This document shows, one piece after another, positions 20,634 through 40,383 of a DNA stretch of 40,804 nt. This DNA is from Ruminococcus sp. Its GTDB lineage: Bacteria; Bacillota; Clostridia; Oscillospirales; Ruminococcaceae. The position numbers were made by a program, and so were the translations under genes. A model generated the notes under the pieces. It was not told where the DNA came from, did no database searches, and saw nothing but the letters and a program-made list of their open reading frames with translations. The stretch lies in the NCBI GenBank assembly GCA_017634275.1, contig JAGBNQ010000080.1, positions 1 to 40,804 of the forward strand, written 5' to 3'. Each line of letters opens with the position of its first letter. The first letter of the stretch is position 1.

Positions 20634-21071
20634 ATGGTATGCGAGATATGCAATAGTACAAAATTCACAGATGATGCAGACGGCTGCACCTGTGCCGTAT
20701 GCGGCACACACTACTCAGCCGAGAAAATAAAGGAGATAGAGCACAGACAGGCGCAAAACGCCCCTGCCCCCGTCAACACGAGCTTTTTGCGTGTAGCGCG
20801 TTTTGGCGGCTTTGACAGAGATGACGTACTCACCTTTATCGACTCACTCAACTGGTATATATTCCACCTTGAAAATGAAAAGGCGCGCCTTGAAAGCGGC
20901 GACCATTCAAAGCCTGCGCAAAAAATTGACCGCCCGTCAAGAACAACACTGCGCACAGTACGTTTCGGCGGCTTTGCCAAAAATGACGTTATAAGCTATG
21001 CCGACGAGCTTAGCAAAAAAATAGCCGACCTTGAAAGCGAGATAAAGGCGCTAAAAGGCGAAAAGGAATAA
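20634..21071 (+). CDS. Zinc-ribbon protein with two FGGF (DivIVA-like) repeats
   Basis: 145 aa from ATG 20634, nine nt after GGGAGG. An N-terminal zinc ribbon has two pairs, C3/C6 in MVCEICNST and CTCAVCGTHY. Two repeated motifs follow: RVARFGGFDRDDVLTFIDSL and RTVRFGGFAKNDVISYADEL, each leading into a short coiled coil. The FGGFxxxDVxxYIDxL pattern resembles the N-terminal membrane-binding/dimerisation part of DivIVA-like proteins and is common in Ruminococcus genomes. It is possibly a cell-division or envelope-organising protein; function is unproven. A GC hairpin at 21089-21109 follows the stop but lacks a T tract. Confidence 0.75.
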   Translation: MVCEICNSTKFTDDADGCTCAVCGTHYSAEKIKEIEHRQAQNAPAPVNTSFLRVARFGGFDRDDVLTFIDSLNWYIFHLENEKARLESGDHSKPAQKIDRPSRTTLRTVRFGGFAKNDVISYADELSKKIADLESEIKALKGEKE

Positions 21072-21118
21072 AAAAAGCCCCACTAAGCGAGGGCGCTGAG
21101 CGCGCCCTCTAAAATAAG

Positions 21119-21258
21119 AAATAAAGAAAGAATAAAGAATAAATAATAAAAGAGGTATCGGCTGCGCCGATTATTTTAAAACAAATCGCGCGCGTTTTCT
21201 GCCTAACGCAGGAAATGTCGATACCTTAAATTTTATTTATTCTTTTTTTATTTATTCG
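21119..21258. repeat. Family-1 heptamer-arm element, copy D
   Basis: Left arm 21119-21151 (A-rich heptamers of AAGAATA type) and right arm 21226-21258 (T-rich, TTTATTC type) are largely complementary. Next to the left arm is GAGGTATCGGCTGCGCCGAT, the family's conserved end hairpin, and GGTATCG also pairs with CGATACC at 21219-21225. The whole unit folds into one long hairpin of about 140 nt. It fills most of the gap between the FGGF gene and cotJA. Confidence 0.6.
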
Positions 21259-21286
21259 CTCTTTTTTAGCGGCGGCGCCCCCTTGT

Positions 21287-21315
21287 AACAAACCGGACAG
21301 CGCAAGCATAGTATA
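21287..21315 (+). promoter_or_regulatory. Possible mother-cell sigma (SigK/SigE-type) promoter of cotJABC
   Basis: AACA at 21287-21290, a 16-nt gap and CATAGTATA at 21307-21315 fit the SigK pattern mACm-N16-CATAnnnTA. In Bacillus subtilis cotJ depends on SigE, so the class is not certain, but no sigma-A promoter is visible here. Confidence 0.45.
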
Positions 21316-21349
21316 TATCACAACACACAGAAATGGAGTTGATGATCTT

Positions 21350-21583
21350 ATGGATATGTTTGACAGCTGCCCGCTTGGCAAGCTTTTAGGCGAGGCCGAG
21401 GACTGTATCATAACAAATACAGGCTCTGACGTTCTGCCCGAAAAGCTTAGCTACGGTATGGCTTACGTTCCCTTTCAGAAATGGGGAAGAATATATGAAA
21501 GCGATGTTGCGCTTATGAGGGGCACTGTATTCCCCTGCCTTGACAAGCCGTTTATAGGAGAGGAGGCGGTCTGCGATGAGTAA
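21350..21583 (+). CDS. cotJA: Spore coat-associated protein CotJA
   Basis: A 77-aa protein with the CotJA signature: short, Pro/Tyr-rich, LSYGMAYVPFQKWGRIYE and ALMRGTVFPCLDKPF. CotJA is a small protein of the inner spore coat made with CotJB and CotJC. ATG 21350 has TGGAG about 11 nt upstream; a second ATG (21356) is possible. It overlaps cotJB by 8 nt. Its presence indicates a spore-forming or formerly spore-forming Clostridia. Confidence 0.9.
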   Translation: MDMFDSCPLGKLLGEAEDCIITNTGSDVLPEKLSYGMAYVPFQKWGRIYESDVALMRGTVFPCLDKPFIGEEAVCDE

Positions 21584-21860
21584 TGACGCTAAGGAGAGAA
21601 AGGCGGCAATGCTTAAAGTCCAGCAGCTTTCCTTTGCACTTGTAGAGGCAGGGCTTTACCTTGATTCTCACCCGACCTGCGAAAAGGGCATTGCCTACTT
21701 TAAAAAGCACAAGGCCGAGCTTGACAAAGCAAGGGCGGAATATGAAAAGAAATTCGGCCCGCTGAAGATGGAAAACGCACTTGGCGCGGACGATAAAAAA
21801 TGGCAGTGGGTATGCGAGCCGTTCCCGTGGGTAAGCGAGTATGAAAGGAGTGAGGGCTGA
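21576..21860 (+). CDS. cotJB: Spore coat protein CotJB
   Basis: A 94-aa protein typical of CotJB: MLKVQQLSFALVEAGLYLDSHP, then a helical KKHKAELDKARAEYEKKFGPL and the closing WQWVCEPFPWVSEYER. The ribosome site GGAGAGGAGG is inside cotJA. It overlaps the first base of cotJC at 21860, so all three genes are translated as one unit. Confidence 0.93.
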   Translation: MSNDAKERKAAMLKVQQLSFALVEAGLYLDSHPTCEKGIAYFKKHKAELDKARAEYEKKFGPLKMENALGADDKKWQWVCEPFPWVSEYERSEG

Positions 21861-22471
21861 TGTTTAACTACGAGAAAAGACTGCAATACCCCGTCAATAT
21901 CAAAAACCCTAACCCTGCGCTTGCAAAGGTGATAATGAGCCAGCTCGGCGGCCCCGACGGCGAGGCAGGCGCAGCACTGAGATACCTCAGCCAGCGCTAC
22001 TCCGCCCCGAGCAGAGAGGTTCAGGCAATGCTGACGGATATCGGGACGGAGGAACTCTCCCACATGGAAATGGTATCTGCGATAATCTACCAGCTGACGC
22101 GCAACCTGACACCCAAGCAGATAAAGGAGCAGGGGTTTGACGCTTACTTTGTTGACCACACGACGGGGATATATCCCGTATCGGCGGCAGGGGTTCCGTT
22201 TACAGCAGCGTATTTCCAGTCGCTCGGCGACCCGATTGCAGACCTCAACGAGGACTTAGCGGCCGAGCAGAAAGCGCGCTTGACCTACGACAACATCTTA
22301 AGGCTCGTTGACGACCCCGATGTAAGAGAGCCGATAAAGTTTTTACGCGAGCGCGAGATAGTTCACTACCAGCGCTTTGGCGAGAGCCTGCGGCTTGTGA
22401 CGGATATGCTCGATGAGCGCAATTTCTACGCATTCAACCCGTCATTTGACAAGGTGAAAAAGAAAAAGTGA
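21860..22471 (+). CDS. cotJC: Manganese catalase-family spore protein CotJC
   Basis: A 203-aa ferritin-like manganese catalase homologue. The N-terminal FNYEKRLQYPVNI is characteristic, and the diiron/dimanganese ligand motifs are present: GGPDGEAGAALRYL, IGTEELSHMEM and REREIVHYQRF. It is thought to protect the spore from peroxide and sits in the coat with CotJA/JB. The full family length is present. A terminator follows directly. Confidence 0.93.
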   Translation: MFNYEKRLQYPVNIKNPNPALAKVIMSQLGGPDGEAGAALRYLSQRYSAPSREVQAMLTDIGTEELSHMEMVSAIIYQLTRNLTPKQIKEQGFDAYFVDHTTGIYPVSAAGVPFTAAYFQSLGDPIADLNEDLAAEQKARLTYDNILRLVDDPDVREPIKFLREREIVHYQRFGESLRLVTDMLDERNFYAFNPSFDKVKKKK

Positions 22472-22477
22472 TATAGC

Positions 22478-22509
22478 AAAGCTCCCCCGAAATATCGGAG
22501 GAGCTTTTA
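22478..22509 (+). terminator. Terminator after cotJABC
   Basis: AAAGCTCCCCCGA pairs with TCGGAGGAGCTTTT around AATA. It lies 6 nt after the cotJC stop and against the end of the convergent small gene. Confidence 0.8.
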
Positions 22510-22689
22510 TCATCTCAGCTTATCTGTTATCTCATCCACCATTTCCGCAAGGCTTTCAAGAGCCCTGCCTGCGGCGCTTTTAAGCTTTTTCTTACCCTTA
22601 TTCATTTTACTTGTCAGCACAAATGCCGCCGTGCCGACGGTTATACCTGTTGAGATACCCTTTACAAGGGGCGAATTTTTAATTGACAT
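22510..22689 (-). CDS. Small YtxH-like hypothetical protein
   Basis: 59 aa from ATG 22689, with AAAGGAGA upstream (an earlier in-frame ATG lies inside repeat DNA and is rejected). A hydrophobic segment, GISTGITVGTAAFVLTS, is followed by a lysine-rich region and an amphipathic helix (GRALESLAEMVDEITDKLR). The layout is that of small YtxH-like single-span proteins; no specific role can be assigned. It is convergent with cotJABC, sharing the terminator region. Confidence 0.65.
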   Translation of the reverse strand: MSIKNSPLVKGISTGITVGTAAFVLTSKMNKGKKKLKSAAGRALESLAEMVDEITDKLR

Positions 22690-22746
22690 AGTATTTTCTC
22701 CTTTCAAGTTGTTTGATGAATGATGACAAACTGGAGTTTGGCTCTC

Positions 22747-22983
22747 CAATTCACAATTCACAATGCACAATGCACAATTATTGTATCGCCTTCGGCGATG
22801 ATATGGCCATTCGGCCGTTCGCCCCCACGATATCGCCTATAATTAGCATTTTAGCTACCCATATAAGCCCGATATGTGGCTTGTCAGCATAGCTGACAGC
22901 TAAGTTTTGCAAAGCAAAACTTCCAGTCCGTCGGCGCGAGCCGACACCTCAATTGTGCATTGTGCATTATGCATTGTGCATTG
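22747..22983. repeat. Family-1 heptamer-arm element, copy A
   Basis: Left arm 22747-22779 and right arm 22951-22983 are each 33 nt and pair at about 30 of 33 positions; they consist of TGCACAA-type heptamers. Inside lie conserved end hairpins (CGCC-TTC-GGCG near 22786 and GTCGGC-GCGA-GCCGAC near 22930-22945), GTCAG-CATA-GCTGAC, and AGTTTTGC-AA-GCAAAACT. No coding frame is supported. Confidence 0.7.
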
Positions 22984-23140
22984 AAACAACCTCCAATTTA
23001 TCTCGCAGTATAATATTTTTTCATCAAAAATATTATCTGCAAATATCCTTTTGTGATACAAGTCAAATGCTGTAACTGATGAAAAAAGCCATTTGTTTAA
23101 ATTCTACAATAAATATTCATAGAAAATGTCAAAATTATCT

Positions 23141-23169
23141 GTTTACTTTTTGCGCAAATGTGGTATAAT
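23141..23169 (+). promoter_or_regulatory. Promoter of the leuC operon
   Basis: TATAAT at 23164-23169 directly preceded by TGG (extended -10), with a weak -35 (GTTTAC at 23141-23146) 17 nt away. I see no T-box or leucine-attenuator structure in the 50-nt leader. Confidence 0.6.
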
Positions 23170-23218
23170 ATAATAGTATCAGTATAAAATATTTTCACGG
23201 AAAGGATGTTGTTTTACT

Positions 23219-24493
23219 TTGGGTATGACAATGACACAAAAGGTCCTCGCGGCTCACGCAGGGCTTGATGAGGTAAAGGCAGGCCAGCTTATAATGGCGA
23301 AACTTGACCTTGTGCTGGGTAATGATGTTACTTCGCCCGTTGCTATCAACGAATTCAATAAGGCGGGCTTTGACAGCGTATTTGATAAAGAAAAGGTAAC
23401 TATGGTAATGGATCACTTTACTCCGAATAAGGATATAAAGTCGGCTCAGAATACCAAACAATGCAGAGATTTCTGCTCGCAGTACTGCATCAAGAATTAT
23501 TTCGATGTCGGTGATATGGGTATCGAACACGCGCTCCTCCCCGAAAAAGGCCTTGTTGCCCCCGGTGACTGCGTTATCGGTGCTGATTCACATACCTGCA
23601 CATACGGCGCACTCGGCGCTTTCTCAACGGGCGTTGGCTCTACTGATATGTGCGCAGGCATGGCTACGGGCAAGGCCTGGTTTAAAGTACCTTCGGCAAT
23701 AAAATTCAATATCACGGGCAAGCTGCCAAAATACAGCGCCGCTAAGGACGTTATCTTACATATAATCGGTATGATAGGCGTTGACGGTGCGCTTTATAAG
23801 TCTATGGAGTTCTCGGGTGAGGGTCTTAAGAACCTTACTATGGAAGACAGGCTCTGCATAGCCAATATGGCTATCGAGGCAGGCGCTAAAAACGGCATCT
23901 TCGCAGTTGATGATGTAACACGCGCTTACTGCTCGGGCAGAGTTGAGAGAGAGTTTACCGTATTTGAGGCTGATGAGGACGCGGAATATGATGCAGTCTA
24001 TGACATAAACCTTGATGATATCAAGCCTACAGTCGCATTCCCTCATCTTCCCGAAAATGCAAGAACATTTGATGATATGCCCGAGGTAAAGATAGACCAG
24101 GTAGTTATCGGCTCCTGCACTAACGGCAGGATAGAGGATATAAGAGCGGCGGCTGAGATACTTAAGGGCAGGCACATTGCTGATAATGTAAGGTGCATAA
24201 TAATCCCGGCAACGCAGAATGTATATCTCCAGGCAATGAAGGAAGGCCTTATGGAGATATTCATTAACGCAGGGTGTGCAGTATCTACCCCTACCTGCGG
24301 ACCATGCCTCGGCGGTCATATGGGTATTCTTGCCAAGGGTGAGAGGGCAGTTGCGACCACAAACAGAAACTTTGTAGGAAGAATGGGACACCCCGAGAGC
24401 GAGGTCTACCTTGCATCGCCTTATGTAGCGGCGGCATCGGCTGTAACGGGCAAAATATCACAGCCGAGTGAGCTTATGAAAGAGGGCGAATGA
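23219..24493 (+). CDS. leuC: 3-isopropylmalate dehydratase large subunit (HacA/LeuC type)
   Basis: A 424-aa aconitase-superfamily protein of the short bacterial/archaeal type. It isomerises 2- to 3-isopropylmalate in leucine synthesis with LeuD. The [4Fe-4S] ligands are C300 (IGSCTNGR) and C360/C363 ([10 protein letters not shown]); [23 protein letters not shown] is the substrate-binding block. The TTG start at 23219 is supported by the usual clostridial start MGMTMTQK and by GGAAAGGATG upstream. It overlaps the Dabb gene by ATGA. It heads a four-gene operon ending in leuD. Confidence 0.95.
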
Positions 24494-24795
24494 TAATGGT
24501 AAGGCATATAATAATCTGGACGCTTAAAAGTGACCTTTCAGAGCAGGAAAAGACAAACGCGCTTATAAAAGCAAAGCGCGGCCTTGAGGGGCTTAAAGGC
24601 AGGATAGACGGCCTTGAAGAGATAAGCGTTCAGATAGATAATCTTGAAAGCTCGAATGCTGATATGCTGCTTGATTCCACACTTGCAGATGAGGCAGCAC
24701 TCGCGGCTTATCAGAAAAACCCCGACCACTTAGAGGTCGCAAAATTCATAAAAGAGATCACCTGTGACAGAAAATGCATTGACTACTTACTATAA
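24490..24795 (+). CDS. Dabb (stress-responsive A/B barrel) domain protein
   Basis: A 101-aa single-domain protein with the Dabb pattern: [18 protein letters not shown], then [19 protein letters not shown], and the closing [26 protein letters not shown]. Dabb proteins are dimeric ferredoxin-like-fold barrels; roles range from stress response to catalysis of polyketide-type cyclisation. The start overlaps leuC (ATGA), with a second ATG at 24496. Insertion in the leu operon suggests common regulation, not a known step of leucine synthesis. Confidence 0.85.
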
Positions 24796-24847
24796 CTACT
24801 CAGCACATTCCTAACCCCTTCAGGCAGGATCCAAAGGAGGGAAGAAC

Positions 24848-25234
24848 ATGAAGGATTACCTTGTAGAGATATTCGGCGATATTATGATGAGCTGGCTTAC
24901 CAAAAAATACGGCACTAAGCTCAGTGACGATCAGCGCCTTGACAAATATGTGGAGGAATTCAGAAGACTTAAGGACGAGGCTAACTTTTCGGTAACATCT
25001 ACCCAGTCGATATTTGACAAGAAGGGCATAAATTCCGCGGAGCCTACTATGCTAAACGGCGAGCCCGTATTCAGGCTCACAAAATCCGGAATGTTCGGCA
25101 AGGTCAAAGTATGCTACTACATCTCGCGTATCAAGGACGAGATAACGGTAGATTATCTTGACAAGATATTTGACGAATTAAGACGTCAGGCAAACAACGA
25201 GAATGTTTTCTCGGCACCTGACTATAAAAACTGA
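24848..25234 (+). CDS. Uncharacterised 128-aa protein between leuC and leuD
   Basis: ATG 24848 follows AAAGGAGGGAAG. The protein is mixed alpha/beta and charged, with MMSWLTKKYGTKLSDDQRLDKYVEEFRRL at the front and a central MLNGEPVFRLTKSGMFGKVKVCYYISRI; no signal peptide or membrane segment. I do not recognise a family. Operon position and short gaps (52 nt before, 20 nt after) tie it to leucine biosynthesis. Confidence 0.7.
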   Translation: MKDYLVEIFGDIMMSWLTKKYGTKLSDDQRLDKYVEEFRRLKDEANFSVTSTQSIFDKKGINSAEPTMLNGEPVFRLTKSGMFGKVKVCYYISRIKDEITVDYLDKIFDELRRQANNENVFSAPDYKN

Positions 25235-25254
25235 TATAAAGGAGAACGGTTACT

Positions 25255-25743
25255 ATGAAGGTATGCGGCAAGGTACACAAATACGGCGACAACGTTGACA
25301 CCGACGTTATAATCCCCGCAAGATACTTAAACACAGCAGACCACAAGGCTCTTGCAGAGCATTGCATGGAGGATATAGACATTGACTTTGTTAAAAAAGT
25401 CAAAAAAGGCGACATAATGGTGGCCGAGTCAAATTTCGGCTGCGGCTCATCAAGAGAACACGCGCCTATCGCTATCAAGGCAAGCGGAATATCCTGCGTT
25501 ATAGCTAAGACCTTTGCAAGGATTTTTTACAGAAACGCTATAAACATAGGTCTGCCAATAATAGAATGCCCCGAGGCTGCCGACAGCATTGAGGCAGGCG
25601 ACGAGGTAGAGATAGACTTTGAAACGGGCATCATCACCAACAAAACAAAGCATGAAACATATCAGGGAACAGCCTTCCCCGAGTTTCTGATAAACATCAT
25701 AAACTCAAACGGGCTTTTAAACTCGCTCAAAAACGAGGAATAA
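25255..25743 (+). CDS. leuD: 3-isopropylmalate dehydratase small subunit
   Basis: A 162-aa swivelling-domain subunit partner of Leu[20 protein letters not shown] at the start and the loop [19 protein letters not shown] that closes over the substrate. It ends with the short-type C-terminus normal for HacB/LeuD of this class. The ribosome site is AAAGGAGAA. It is the last gene of the leu operon, followed by a terminator. Confidence 0.95.
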
Positions 25744-25755
25744 GAAAAAAAACAA

Positions 25756-25792
25756 ATCGCAGTACGCTATGAAAAGTGTACTGCGGTTTTTT
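25756..25792 (+). terminator. Terminator of the leu operon
   Basis: The perfect stem CGCAGTAC / GTACTGCG with a 12-nt loop is followed by GTTTTTTATT, 13 nt past the leuD stop. Confidence 0.85.
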
Positions 25793-25806
25793 ATTGTATC
25801 AGATGA

Positions 25807-26054
25807 CAAACCGGAATTTGTGGGGGCGATGCGCATACCGAAGGGGTTCGGGGGCGAGCGGAAAGCCCCCGAAAAAGGGCGCGCGGCTTGTTAGGACACT
25901 ATCTTAGCTTTGAGCGTGAAACAAGCTAAAAAACCAAATAACGAGCGATACGCTAAGGCTTTGTTCATCGCTCCGAGGGGTCAAGCCGCCTGCGGCGGCT
26001 TGGTGGGGGGCTTTGCGGTCGCCCCCCAGACCCCCTTCGCCAAATTCCAATTTG
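25807..26054 (+). repeat. Family-2 GC-rich intergenic element, copy 1
   Basis: About 248 bp with imperfect 14-bp terminal inverted repeats (CAAACCGGAATTTG and CAAATTCCAATTTG). It contains CGGGGGC-GAGCGGAAA-GCCCCCG, the AT-rich stem CTTAGCTT/AAGCTAA around TGAGCGTGAAAC, and GGGGGGC-TTTGCGGTC-GCCCCCC. It ends 4 bp before the stop codon of the DUF218 gene. No coding frame is supported. Confidence 0.7.
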
Positions 26055-26057
26055 CCC

Positions 26058-26840
26058 TTACCTCGTCACAAAATAGTAACTCAGCGTCAGCCATTCGCGT
26101 ACCCAGTAGGTCGGGAGAAATCTAAGCTCGGTTTCGGCACTTATGCCGAATGCGTCAAGTCCCTCGCCTTTGGCTATAAGGCCTGCGCGGTAGAGGTGGT
26201 AGCCGTCGGAAATAAAGCATACTGAGCCGCTAAAGCCCATATCATCAAGGATATTCTTTGAATAAAGCATATTTTCGCGCGTTGAGGTCGATTCACCCTC
26301 CTCGGTGATGCGGCTGCTGTCTATCCCCTTTTGCACTAAGTATTTTTTCATGATCTCCGCCTCGGTATAGTCCTCATCAGACCCCTTTCCGCCCGAAACT
26401 ATGCAGATAGCGTCCTCATTCTCGCAAAGGTAGTCGTATGCTCTGTCAAGGCGGTACTTAAGCATTCGTGAGGGGCTGTCGCCGCGTATCTGGCAGCCTA
26501 AAACTATCACGGCATCTGCCTTTTTATCCTCGCCGCTGCTTATCGCGCGCGCCATTAGAACTGACAAAACTATGCAGTAAACTACCCCTGCCGCTATTAT
26601 CACGCTAACAGCTATCACCGCCGCCTTGCCGCCGCGCGTTTTGCAAAGCGAGGATATAAGCCCCCTGAACTTATCGAAAAACATCGTTATGATGATAAGC
26701 AGTGAGCTTACGGCTATCCCTGCTATATTTCCTGCGCACACTACGGGCAGCGCCCGAAGAAAGCTCCACAGCAGCACAGCCTCCAGTGACACTATTATAA
26801 AGCGCACCACAAGCGCTGTCAGGTTTATCTCGTTATCCAC
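26058..26840 (-). CDS. YdcF-like DUF218 membrane protein
   Basis: 260 aa. Three membrane segments fill residues 1-90 (LTALVVRFIIVSLEAVLLWSF, IAGIAVSSLLIIITMFF, AAVIAVSVIIAAGVVYCIVL). The DUF218 domain follows: ADAVIVLGCQI, RLDRAYDYL, ICIVSGGKG, EAEIMKKYLVQKGI, EGESTSTRENMLYSKNIL and FISDGYHLYRA. Family members (YdcF, SanA) are linked to envelope or vancomycin-barrier functions; a precise activity is not settled. GTG 26840 follows AAAGGAG at good distance. It lies 12 nt downstream of the C39-peptidase gene, so the two form an operon. Confidence 0.85.
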   Translation of the reverse strand: MDNEINLTALVVRFIIVSLEAVLLWSFLRALPVVCAGNIAGIAVSSLLIIITMFFDKFRGLISSLCKTRGGKAAVIAVSVIIAAGVVYCIVLSVLMARAISSGEDKKADAVIVLGCQIRGDSPSRMLKYRLDRAYDYLCENEDAICIVSGGKGSDEDYTEAEIMKKYLVQKGIDSSRITEEGESTSTRENMLYSKNILDDMGFSGSVCFISDGYHLYRAGLIAKGEGLDAFGISAETELRFLPTYWVREWLTLSYYFVTR

Positions 26841-26852
26841 ATTATTTCTCCT

Positions 26853-27920
26853 TTACTCTATCAAGACCGCGTGCATTCCCTGCTCCTTGTAGCGCTTTTC
26901 AAAAAGCTTTTCGCTCAGCCTCGTCGGCTCTGTATTGCGCCTTAACGGGTCGCAGCAGAAAACCACGCCTGCCTCGGTATCAAACCCCACAAGCACAAGG
27001 CAATGCTCGTTATGCAGCCAGGTTATCTCCTTGCCGTCCTCAGTGAGCCAGCTGTCGCCCTCCTCTGATTTTTTAAGCCCGTCAGTTGCCCAGATTATTA
27101 TAGGTGTGCCGTTGTTGACGTATTTATACCAGTAGGAAAGCTTTTTGCCGTCAACTGCCTTTGCCTTAAGCTCGCTTTGCTGCGATGCTAAAAATCTGTT
27201 TGCGGCATTCGCTATAGGCGTGCTGTAGCAGCCATAGCTGTTTATATCCTCGGGGTCGCCCGGGAACACCTTATCGGGGTCAGCGCCGTAGAGCTGCGTT
27301 TCGCTGTCCTTTTTCTTCGGGTCTTTCTTTTTCTCATAAAAGGGCTGCTTTTCAAGGTACATATCGGCTATCTCGTTTTTCGTCACATCAAAGCCGTAAT
27401 ATTTAAGCACTGTCGCAAGCGCCGTACACTCGCACCCCGTCGGCAGCGAGGGTCTTGAATGCTGGCAGATATTCATTACCCCGAGAATACATTTATCCTG
27501 CATAGTCGTAAGGGTAACGGTCTTTGAGCGCGCGGTGTATTCCTTATCGCTGCCCTGCTGCTTAAAGGCAGCAAGGGTAAACTCGGCGCGCTCACCCGAG
27601 GGGCGGTCGGTTATTACATATTCCGTCAGTTCATTTGAGATAAAATGCTTTTGTGTTTCGCCCGATTTTACGAAAGTCACATCAATCTCATACCCGTCAG
27701 CGCCCTCGCAGCTTTTCCATGCAAGCTTAAAGCCCGACTTATCGGTGCTGCCCTTAAAGCCCTCTATCAGCGGCAGCTCGGGCTCTTTCGGCTCGGCTGT
27801 CTGCGTAGAAACGGCGCTCACCGCCGCAGGCTCGGCACTGCTCTGCTCGCCGCCCTTTGCGCACGAACAGAGCACCCCCACCGCAATTACTGCCGATATG
27901 AGAGCTATTTTATTTTTCAT
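26853..27920 (-). CDS. Lipoprotein with FN3-like domain and C39-type cysteine peptidase domain
   Basis: 355 aa. The lipoprotein signal peptide ends GVLCSC (lipid-modified cysteine at 18 or 20). Residues about 50-140 look like an FN3 domain (GFKLAWKSCEGADGYEIDV). The C-terminal two thirds is a peptidase C39_2 domain: catalytic cysteine in SLPTGCECTALATVLKYYG, histidine in HNEHCLVLVGF and aspartate in VVFCCDPL. It probably processes or binds cell-wall or secreted peptides at the outside of the membrane. ATG 27920 has AAAGGAC 14 nt upstream. Confidence 0.85.
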   Translation of the reverse strand: MKNKIALISAVIAVGVLCSCAKGGEQSSAEPAAVSAVSTQTAEPKEPELPLIEGFKGSTDKSGFKLAWKSCEGADGYEIDVTFVKSGETQKHFISNELTEYVITDRPSGERAEFTLAAFKQQGSDKEYTARSKTVTLTTMQDKCILGVMNICQHSRPSLPTGCECTALATVLKYYGFDVTKNEIADMYLEKQPFYEKKKDPKKKDSETQLYGADPDKVFPGDPEDINSYGCYSTPIANAANRFLASQQSELKAKAVDGKKLSYWYKYVNNGTPIIIWATDGLKKSEEGDSWLTEDGKEITWLHNEHCLVLVGFDTEAGVVFCCDPLRRNTEPTRLSEKLFEKRYKEQGMHAVLIE

Positions 27921-27941
27921 ATCAGCAGCACGTCCTTTCTA

Positions 27942-28165
27942 CAGTTAACAGTTAACAGATAACAGATAACAGTTATTGTGGCCGCCTTTGGCGAACAGAT
28001 AGTTGTCAGGGCGGCAAAATTGTGGATTTCAGGTAATATTGTCTGGGTAAACGGCCGATATGGCGCTCGTCATCTTCGATGACAGCTAAGTTTGCAAGCA
28101 AACTTACATAACATCGCCGCAGGCGATACCTCAACTGTTAACTGTTACCTGTTACCTGTTAACTT
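27942..28165. repeat. Family-1 heptamer-arm element, copy B
   Basis: Left arm 27942-27974 and right arm 28133-28165, 33 nt each, are built of CTGTTAA-type heptamers and pair at about 29 of 33 positions. Inside are CCGCC-TTT-GGCG next to the left arm, ATCGCC-GCA-GGCGAT next to the right arm, CATC-TTC-GATG, and AGTTTGC-AA-GCAAACT. The order of hairpins is as in copy A while every stem differs in sequence. Confidence 0.7.
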
Positions 28166-28196
28166 GCTTGTGTGGCAAAGCCCCACAAATTCCTAT

Positions 28197-28847
28197 TTAT
28201 CTTTGTGCAAGAAAATCCCTGACCTCCAGCAAGTCCTTAAACTCCCTCTCGGCCATTTGCCTGACCTCGGGGGTGTTTTCAACTATGTCGGGAACGAGCA
28301 GAGGGTGCATTCCTGCGCGGAATGCTGAGATTATGCCGTTGTTTGAATCCTCTATCGCGTAGGTGTTTTCGGGCTTTTCGCCTAACTGCTCGCAGGCTTT
28401 GAGGTATATCTCGGGCTCGGGCTTTGAATGCGTTACCATATCTCCGCCGATTATCTTCTCAAAATACTCCTCTATCCCTGCCATGCGAAGATGCCCCTTT
28501 ACCCCGTTTATCTCGGTCGATGAGGCAATTGCAGTCTTTATGCCGTTTTCCTTAAGCCACTCTAAAAGCTCCTTGACCCCCTTTTTGAGCGTCAGCCCCT
28601 CGGCAGCTATTATTCTCTTAAATTCATAGGTACATTCTGCCCTGAGATGCTCAATGTCAACATCTTTATACGCCGCTCTGAGTATGGCCATAGTGTCCTT
28701 TGTACTCCTGCCTATGCATTCGCGTGCGTAATGCTCTACGTTTTCAAGCGAGTGGCGCTCTCCTACCGCAACCCAGGCGCGCAGGCCTACCGTTTCGGTG
28801 TCAAAAATAACACCGTCCATATCAAATACTACCGAAAATCCACTCAC
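28197..28847 (-). CDS. HAD-superfamily phosphatase / phosphomutase
   Basis: A 216-aa haloacid dehalogenase subfamily I protein with a helical cap. Motif I is VVFDMDGVIFDTE (nucleophile Asp10 with Asp12), motif II is TAIASSTE, motif III the Lys of HSKPEPEIYLKA, and motif IV AIEDSNNGIISAFRAGM. It is closest in look to beta-phosphoglucomutase-like enzymes; the substrate cannot be read from sequence. GTG 28847 overlaps the AAA+ gene stop (GTGA), with AGGGGG upstream; last gene of an rlmL-like/AAA+/HAD operon. Confidence 0.88.
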   Translation of the reverse strand: MSGFSVVFDMDGVIFDTETVGLRAWVAVGERHSLENVEHYARECIGRSTKDTMAILRAAYKDVDIEHLRAECTYEFKRIIAAEGLTLKKGVKELLEWLKENGIKTAIASSTEINGVKGHLRMAGIEEYFEKIIGGDMVTHSKPEPEIYLKACEQLGEKPENTYAIEDSNNGIISAFRAGMHPLLVPDIVENTPEVRQMAEREFKDLLEVRDFLAQR

Positions 28848-31420: not shown

Positions 31421-31688
31421 AGTTTAGCGCTCCGTTGTGGAGGAGCGATGCCGCGAAGGGGGTACGGGGGACATTTGCTTACTGCGTGAGCAAGCAAAGC
31501 CCCCCGAAAAGGGCGTAAACTAATTTCAGCCTTTTAAAGTTATCTTTGTGCGTGCTACAAGTTTTCTTAGCTTGTTTCACGCTCAAAGCTAAGATAGTGT
31601 CCTAACAAGCCTTGCGCCCTTTTTCGGGGGCTTTCCGCTCGCCCCCGAACCCCTTCGGTTATGCGCATCGCCCCCACAAATGCCGATT
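31421..31688 (-). repeat. Family-2 GC-rich intergenic element, copy 2
   Basis: Inverse orientation to copy 1. Positions 31570-31676 are nearly identical to the reverse complement of 25820-25912 plus flank, including the GTGGGGGCGATGCGCAT end, the CGGGGGC/GCCCCCG hairpin and the TTAGCTTGTTTCACGCTC core. The other half (31421-31510) is diverged but keeps a GGGGG-rich hairpin. It separates the rlmL-like gene start from the end of the penicillin-binding protein gene. Confidence 0.7.
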
Positions 31689-31705
31689 TTCCTCTCCTCT
31701 AATAA

Positions 31706-40078: not shown

Positions 40079-40380
40079 GATAAACCGGAGTTCGTTTCAA
40101 TGCACAACGCATAATGCACAATGCACAATTGAGGTGTTGGCTCGCGCCGACGAATGCCCATTCGGGCTTGTAAGAGCGCTGCTGCGAAGGGGGCTTGGGG
40201 GGCGACCGCAAAGCCCCCCAAAAAGCCCCTCGGAGCGATGAACAAAGCCTTAGCTCAACGCGTATTTTTCAGGATTTTTATAATTGTTTTACGCTCATAG
40301 CTATGTTGAGGACAAATCAAGCCTCGCGCCCTTTTCGGGGGCTTTCCGCTCGCCCCCGAACCCCTTCGGTATGCACACGG
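40079..40380. repeat. Composite of family-1 half element and family-2 element (copy C / copy 3)
   Basis: GATAAACCGGAGTTCG (40079-40094) resembles the family-2 terminal repeat. Positions 40098-40130 are a 33-nt family-1 arm with GAGGTGTTGGCTCGCGCCGAC after it, nearly identical to the reverse complement of the right end of copy A. From about 40184 the sequence matches family-2 (CGAAGGGGGC..., GGGGGGC-GACCGCAAA-GCCCCCC hairpin, CGGGGGC-TTTCCGCTC-GCCCCCG hairpin). The second family-1 arm is missing. It ends 4 bp before the DUF3006 stop. Confidence 0.65.
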
Positions 40381-40383
40381 CCA

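Follow-up and report, generated by a model that had tools for sequence, protein, structure and literature searches.

Heptamer-armed hairpin copies in a Ruminococcus contig as probable gene-less relatives of S23 elements

Our analysis of a 40,804-nt contig from Ruminococcus sp. (JAGBNQ010000080.1 of assembly GCA_017634275.1; this whole stretch is called the window) indicates that four hairpin copies in it, A, B, C and D, are very probably gene-less relatives of S23 elements, that is, small mobile elements with inverted heptamer arms of about 33 nt, of a kind resembling miniature inverted-repeat transposable elements (MITEs). The arms, each made of four to five 7-nt words, enclose either an S23/IVP gene of about 120 codons, whose product is a four-helix bundle, or only hairpins. 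We observe the same arm rule from copy to copy, an association with S23 genes in several phyla, and sequence common to coding and gene-less copies. We also find sites that are empty in related genomes, an S23 unit that has moved recently, and S23 units next to tRNA genes.

The rule is that two inverted arms of about 33 nt, built of 7-nt units, are each followed by a short tag, RWKGT, and then by a hairpin whose sequence varies. A scan for period-7 arrays of at least 26 nt found four in the whole window, namely both arms of A and both of B. An initial annotation of this DNA had described arms of this length and pairing in these two copies, and our measurements agree: a comparison anchored at the junction gives an arm identity of 0.91 for A and 0.88 for B, while an inverted-repeat search pairs the arms of B at 91% over 32 nt and those of A at 82% over 45 nt. 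Its half copy C is indeed a one-ended copy. Its inclusion of D stands in part, since D folds well and matches arms beside S23 genes (see below) while its own arms are weaker, falling below the period-7 threshold and being complementary at 71% over 49 nt or 81% over 31 nt. Folded as DNA, A (22725-23002) reaches -62.2 kcal/mol (z -8.95), B -48.1 kcal/mol (z -6.4) and D -32.2 kcal/mol (z -5.5), and for none of the three was any of 200 shuffles as good. No Rfam family matched at its gathering score anywhere in the window, and the five matches at E up to 1 in 21000-28300 each lie far under that score.

The link to S23 is seen most directly within the genus. A search for PF05635 gave 11 matches in six of the seven genus genomes, seven of them checked for membership, and a period-7 array lies close to the gene in all 11. 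The S23 genes at four loci (L324, L325, L326 and L330) have the same arm words as gene-less copies. Moreover, the inner right segment of L325, arms excluded, is 95% identical over 42 nt to a gene-less copy of the source genome, and the ends of L324, arms included, match gene-less copies strongly, among them the right end of copy B at 86.5% over 52 nt. The other seven genes form a second subfamily with the words GAATAAT, GAATAGT or AAAGAAT (six proteins were compared; the broken gene of L329 was assigned from its arms and tRNA), and it is the arms of three of these loci, L329, L334 and L328, that copy D matches. Closely related S23 proteins have closely related heptamers. The initial annotation knew of no named family with such arms; the same arms in fact flank S23/IVP genes, and passages of PMC4990558 describe heptamers in one rRNA intervening sequence.

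The association extends well beyond the genus. PF05635 occurs in 139 of 295 genomes of the order, and at 30 loci, which are among the best-scoring matches of these 139 genomes, an array lies within 400 bp of the gene in 22 and on both sides in 9, with many different words. At 23 of the 30 the inverted repeat exceeds all 60 shuffles, and the 90.8 kb that they cover contain one further array away from the gene. For plasmids we took 14 of 23 records: arrays accompany the S23 gene at 11 loci (one in Spirochaetota, one in Bacteroidota and nine in Cyanobacteriota), and the inverted repeat exceeds all 100 shuffles at all 14, although the Chloroflexota and Pseudanabaena loci do so only narrowly. Arms belonging to the same S23 locus have a median match score of 20.8 versus 8.5 between loci, and 32 of 44 own-locus scores lie above the between-locus 95th percentile. 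At four plasmid loci (L367, L373, L377 and L378) the S23 gene lies between restriction-modification genes or beside cas1/cas2.

The initial annotation had offered a mobile hairpin element as one explanation, and empty orthologous sites bear it out. Copy A is absent from the orthologous place in L139, and two copies of the genome G006 are absent from G001; one of these two (L240:12457-12965) carries, between its arms, a gene for a PF05635 protein. L140 carries a TGCATAA copy just before the gene of a neighbouring protein, presumably leuC; the window is without that copy, and L142 has an apparent remnant of it at the same place. When L140:1876-2159 is compared with L142, the flanks are 83-85% identical and a core segment is inverted, at 90% over 145 nt, 95 nt of that being identical. 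Finally, S23 unit L327 of the source genome and L331 of G006, another species, are 98.3% identical over 526 bp, while the rest of the 3.3 kb does not align and the flanks agree base by base at 31% and 27%, an alignment that we read as showing a recent move of this unit.

Could the copies instead be regulatory or terminator RNAs, that is, non-mobile hairpins in untranslated regions selected by the host? The strong folds and compensated stems would fit such RNAs, 68 of 75 array clusters do lie outside any open reading frame (ORF) of at least 80 aa, and convergent neighbours are commoner than in the background (17 of 59 classified clusters versus 62 of 343 gaps). However, the empty sites and the core inverted at an orthologous site speak against this explanation, as does the want of a strict gene context (32 tandem, 17 convergent and 10 divergent), so that we consider it improbable.

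The copies are numerous and, in G005, unevenly spread. BLAST with A found 86 pieces in the source genome, and a shorter query matched all six other genus genomes and 3 of 54 others (10 of 61 overall). Judged by one neighbouring protein, the closest named relatives are Ruminococcus metagenome-assembled genomes, of which the top two come from goat omasum and sheep rumen. In G005 we sampled 20 stretches (L219-L238, 16-20 kb each); 13 of them are without an array while one has 11, hence density should not be taken from a few loci; the stretches of G002, G003 and G006 were picked around matches and are thus biased. Two D-type copies of two species, L257:58-243 and L224:13630-13783, have near-identical 50-nt flanks. 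Measured from outer edge to junction at 221 ends (loci up to L323), arm length peaks at 32-33 nt (107 ends), with steps at 26 and 39-40 nt. Among 215 distinct arrays in the sampled loci, RWKGT stands on exactly one side in 169, on both in 16 and on neither in 30.

REPINs come to mind because each of the two inverted ends places a conserved short tag 5' of a hairpin that varies in sequence, and like the REPINs and GTAG REPs with RAYT treated in PMC3733652 our copies are miniature mobile units of two inverted tagged hairpins. In that case a Y1 (HUH) transposase would read the tag in single-stranded DNA. Yet the tag is RWKGT rather than GTAG (or CGTC), and in contrast to those REPINs no RAYT was found alongside, the heptamer arms are long and the hairpin sequence varies within a genome. 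A PF01797 search found Y1 genes in four of the seven genomes, with none in G000 (59% complete), G002 or G003, all incomplete, and the seven scanned loci with an IS200-type tnpA (Y1) have no arrays. Since the Y1 genes that were found have no arrays nearby, REPIN/RAYT was rejected as a candidate. Moreover, the S23 units seen on Nostoc plasmids have arms without tag and hairpin. We therefore hold a REPIN-like origin to be very improbable.

Arms of a copy resemble each other while the word changes between copies. With the heptamers of both arms tabulated in 48 two-armed copies, mean arm identity is 0.831 versus 0.741 when arms are permuted within the genome (maximum of 500 permutations, 0.807), so that the coupling of the arms, proposed in the initial annotation, does exceed chance; the observed value was reached by 1 permutation in G000, 15 in G002 and 5 in G005. 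The coupling is not absolute. Of 39 copies no longer than 300 bp, 35 reach an identity of at least 0.75, as do only 2 of 9 larger ones, and two chimeric copies (L010 and L102), unmentioned in the initial annotation, carry a different heptamer on each arm. Over 165 nt, the core of A, with TGCACAA arms, and those of four TGAATAA copies share 84-87% identity; for CAGGTAA cores of G005 against TGCACAA cores the identity is 75-80% over 107-125 nt. Related cores thus occur under different words, which implies that both arms change word while the core stays.

This last result bears on a further alternative, in which the arrays are slippage products gathering near S23 genes and at other intergenic sites, arm pairing being a by-product of common descent. 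The ladder of copy numbers at 26, 33 and 39-40 nt would fit slippage, as would a weak mirroring of unit variants between arms. But the arms are inverted, not direct, their length peak is narrow, own arms match far better than those of most other S23 loci, and the word is replaced on both arms with the core kept; slippage is accordingly an unlikely account. For copying of one arm from the other, and with it the snap-back route that the initial annotation had considered, the evidence is mixed. In 34 gene-less pairs, variant units agree at 0.869 in register versus 0.866 when shifted by one unit (20 better, 14 worse), while permutation of unit order, informative for 31 of the 34, lends modest support with 17 above, 3 below and 11 ties (z 3.0). 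The two tests disagree, and unit variants are mirrored between arms weakly at most. S23-coding loci gave 34 of 48 (z 7.2) in the unit-order test, a result that is biased because the best diagonal was chosen.

The hairpins are compensated, as the initial annotation had proposed. A stem of at least 6 bp directly follows the junction in 70% of 169 ends, versus 19% in shuffles and 23% when the outer flank of the arrays is taken instead, and 147 ends with a stem of at least 5 bp contain 51 distinct 5' stems. When geometry was fixed and the 3' halves were redealt 200 times, two of five geometries exceeded every deal, 7+3+7 (40 of 146, maximum dealt 16) and 6+5+6 (44 of 146, maximum dealt 19); 6+3+6, 6+4+6 and 7+4+7 did not rise above all 200.

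The layout of the window copies is given in Table 1. It includes an outer inverted repeat of GATAAACCGGARTTTG type, a feature that had gone unmentioned, on both sides of A, on the one side of C and on the right of B only.

Table 1. Heptamer-armed copies in the window and their parts
Feature	Positions	Strand	Basis
Copy A, whole element including outer inverted repeat	22725..23002	no strand	BLAST, outer-repeat pairing; site empty in L139
Copy A left outer terminal inverted repeat GACAAACTGGAGTTTG	22725..22740	+	repeat pattern
Copy A left heptamer arm, TGCACAA type, 33 nt	22747..22779	+	period-7 scan
Copy A junction ATTGT and hairpin ATCGCC..GGCGAT	22780..22799	+	sequence, fold
Copy A hairpin GTCGGC..GCCGAC and junction (GAGGT, - strand)	22930..22950	-	sequence, fold
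Copy A right heptamer arm	22951..22983	-	period-7 scan
Copy A right outer terminal inverted repeat	22987..23002	-	repeat pattern
Copy B, whole span	27941..28201		
Copy B left heptamer arm, GTTAACA type	27942..27974	+	period-7 scan
Copy B junction ATTGT	27975..27979	+	sequence
Copy B hairpin ATCGCC..GGCGAT and junction (GAGGT, - strand)	28113..28132	-	sequence
Copy B right heptamer arm	28133..28165	-	period-7 scan; end matches S23-coding L324
Copy B outer hairpin and outer inverted repeat, right side only	28166..28201	-	repeat pattern; inverted repeat = 28186-28201
Copy C, one-ended: outer repeat 40079-40094, TGCACAA arm 40098-40130, GAGGT, hairpin	40079..40151	+	
Copy D, AATAAAG type; junctions GAGGT 21152-21156, ACCTT 21223-21227	21112..21267	no strand	related to arms beside subfamily-2 S23 genes

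Terminal inverted repeats are what one expects of a MITE of a DDE transposon, and here the outer repeat provides them. The copies might then be ordinary MITEs, on whose outer GATAAACCGG inverted repeat an unseen DDE transposase acts, with the heptamer arms as passive filler. Allowing up to two mismatches, the pattern has 133 matches in the source genome (1.76 Mb, 59% complete) versus 0 for the reversed pattern as control, and in the sequence examined it bounds 32 paired units (167-366 bp), of which many contain other hairpins and no heptamers. However, the repeat is rare in G005 (13 matches, reversed 0) and in G006 (5, reversed 2), whose heptamer copies mostly go without it, and such MITEs leave unexplained why S23 genes of other families and phyla have heptamer arms next to them. 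We regard this explanation as rather unlikely, if less so than the other alternatives to our main reading. No autonomous transposon with the same ends was recognised at 13 extended-repeat loci, with ORFs listed at one of them only (L128, in G005). The transposase found there, the only one seen between outer repeats, belongs to an IS3-like element inserted in a heptamer arm and was rejected as a candidate: the two-ORF element (L128:1772-3053), presumably of the IS3 family, has ATT on each side and interrupts the right arm of one copy.

Several side observations concern these repeats. An end similar to that of the IS3-like element adjoins an array in L235 near 13114, and G005 has another palindromic repeat with GGCAACACCGC ends at L128:1451-1629 and L280 near 1560-1750. 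In the window, further modular hairpin copies without heptamer arrays lie at 25805-26056, 31563-31692 and 40184-40382, the last continuing from copy C; outer-repeat-like ends stand at 25805-25820, 26041-26056 and 31677-31692, and 25837-25933 is 97% complementary to 31563-31659 over 97 nt.

Several results weigh against our reading of the copies as relatives of S23 elements. The window itself contains no S23 (PF05635) gene. Without their arms, the inner segments of L324 and L330 match gene-less copies weakly (E 0.001 to 0.05), and at four of the seven subfamily-2 genes the arrays form an inverted pair on one side of the gene only, so that the arms do not simply enclose it. No array was detectable at 8 of the 30 order loci and 3 of the 14 plasmid loci, and high scores (up to 72) also occur for some arm pairs drawn from different S23 loci. 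In G006, arm coupling is indistinguishable from permutation (163 of 500); almost all pairs there carry TGCATAA or something close to it. As regards movement, no mobility enzyme was identified, and the empty sites, all from other species, show no clear target-site duplication.

How might heptamer-armed S23 elements move? We suggest tentatively, as a possibility somewhat short of an even chance, that they take an RNA route. The element would act as a folded single strand, most likely RNA, with its arms paired into a long duplex like that of those 23S rRNA intervening sequences that are excised by RNase III. S23 is described as a homopentamer in passages of PMC4990558, and a sequence search gave two solved S23 relatives with five chains each; the S23 protein of our elements, a relative of that homopentamer, may bind either the arms or the strand after its excision, with five subunits matched to roughly five 7-nt steps. 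Copies at new sites would be made by a polymerase or reverse transcriptase provided in trans. The 7-nt word may drift, either because each arm can serve as template for the other or because selection acts on pairing, phase and length only.

A tRNA gene lies near all seven subfamily-2 loci, the nearest being tRNA-Tyr five times, tRNA-Leu and tRNA-Pro. In the order set, 7 of 30 S23 units, with different words, end 4-8 nt before a same-strand tRNA-Leu gene, and three more loci, without arrays, are near another tRNA.

Some 23S rRNA intervening sequences lack an S23p gene. Such a gene is not inside the window copies and is present in related coding copies, and the long terminal stem that inverted repeats form in 23S rRNA intervening sequences is found in A and B, judging from folds and arms; the window copies sit between ORFs, not in a 23S rRNA helix. 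The passages of PMC4990558 on these intervening sequences describe an S23 family protein and terminal inverted repeats forming a long stem, as in our elements, and one case with a 28-bp terminal stem and tandem heptamers at one end, whose copy number varies between strains and which is called a selfish element. In contrast, our copies lie between genes and beside tRNA genes, are many per genome and mostly gene-less, and have heptamer arrays on both arms with a word that varies among copies. In the literature searched, as far as its passages go, S23 is tied to heptamers in PMC4990558 only, for that one 23S rRNA intervening sequence, and no heptamer-arm rule for S23 genes was found.

Two other systems share the heptamers. 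The P6b stem of the Nostoc tRNA-Leu(UAA) intron, as presented in passages of PMC4476775, is likewise a stem of 7-nt repeats with its structure kept; it is built from one of two 7-nt classes, one of which repeatedly replaced the other. Unlike heptamer-armed elements it is one loop of a group I intron and not dispersed, and these passages make no link to S23. The TAACTGA repeats of Beggiatoaceae, cyanobacteria and Bacteroidetes (parts of PMC4679880) are also intergenic tandem heptamers in scattered phyla, but they have one fixed word, are direct repeats and stand mostly upstream of start codons; the main-text parts of PMC4679880 mention neither S23 nor 23S. As for the protein family, PMC10053308 describes PF05635 as resembling Avd of diversity-generating retroelements, a protein essential to retrohoming.

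More generally, we propose with similar caution that heptamer-armed S23 elements may be one widespread class of mobile elements, RNA-borne and present in at least four phyla, in which pentameric S23 would measure about five 7-nt steps whatever the word, and whose units would insert into transcripts of stable RNAs (leaders and trailers of tRNAs, and 23S rRNA) and also between genes, with 23S rRNA intervening sequences and cyanobacterial heptamer stems as special cases. According to passages of PMC4990558, it is unclear or unknown where rRNA intervening sequences come from, what they do and what role S23 proteins have. Borders predicted from heptamer arms, together with occupied and empty, coding and gene-less copies, make these questions testable, and if arms change word while keeping pairing, phase and length, their recognition would rest, unusually, on shape and spacing.

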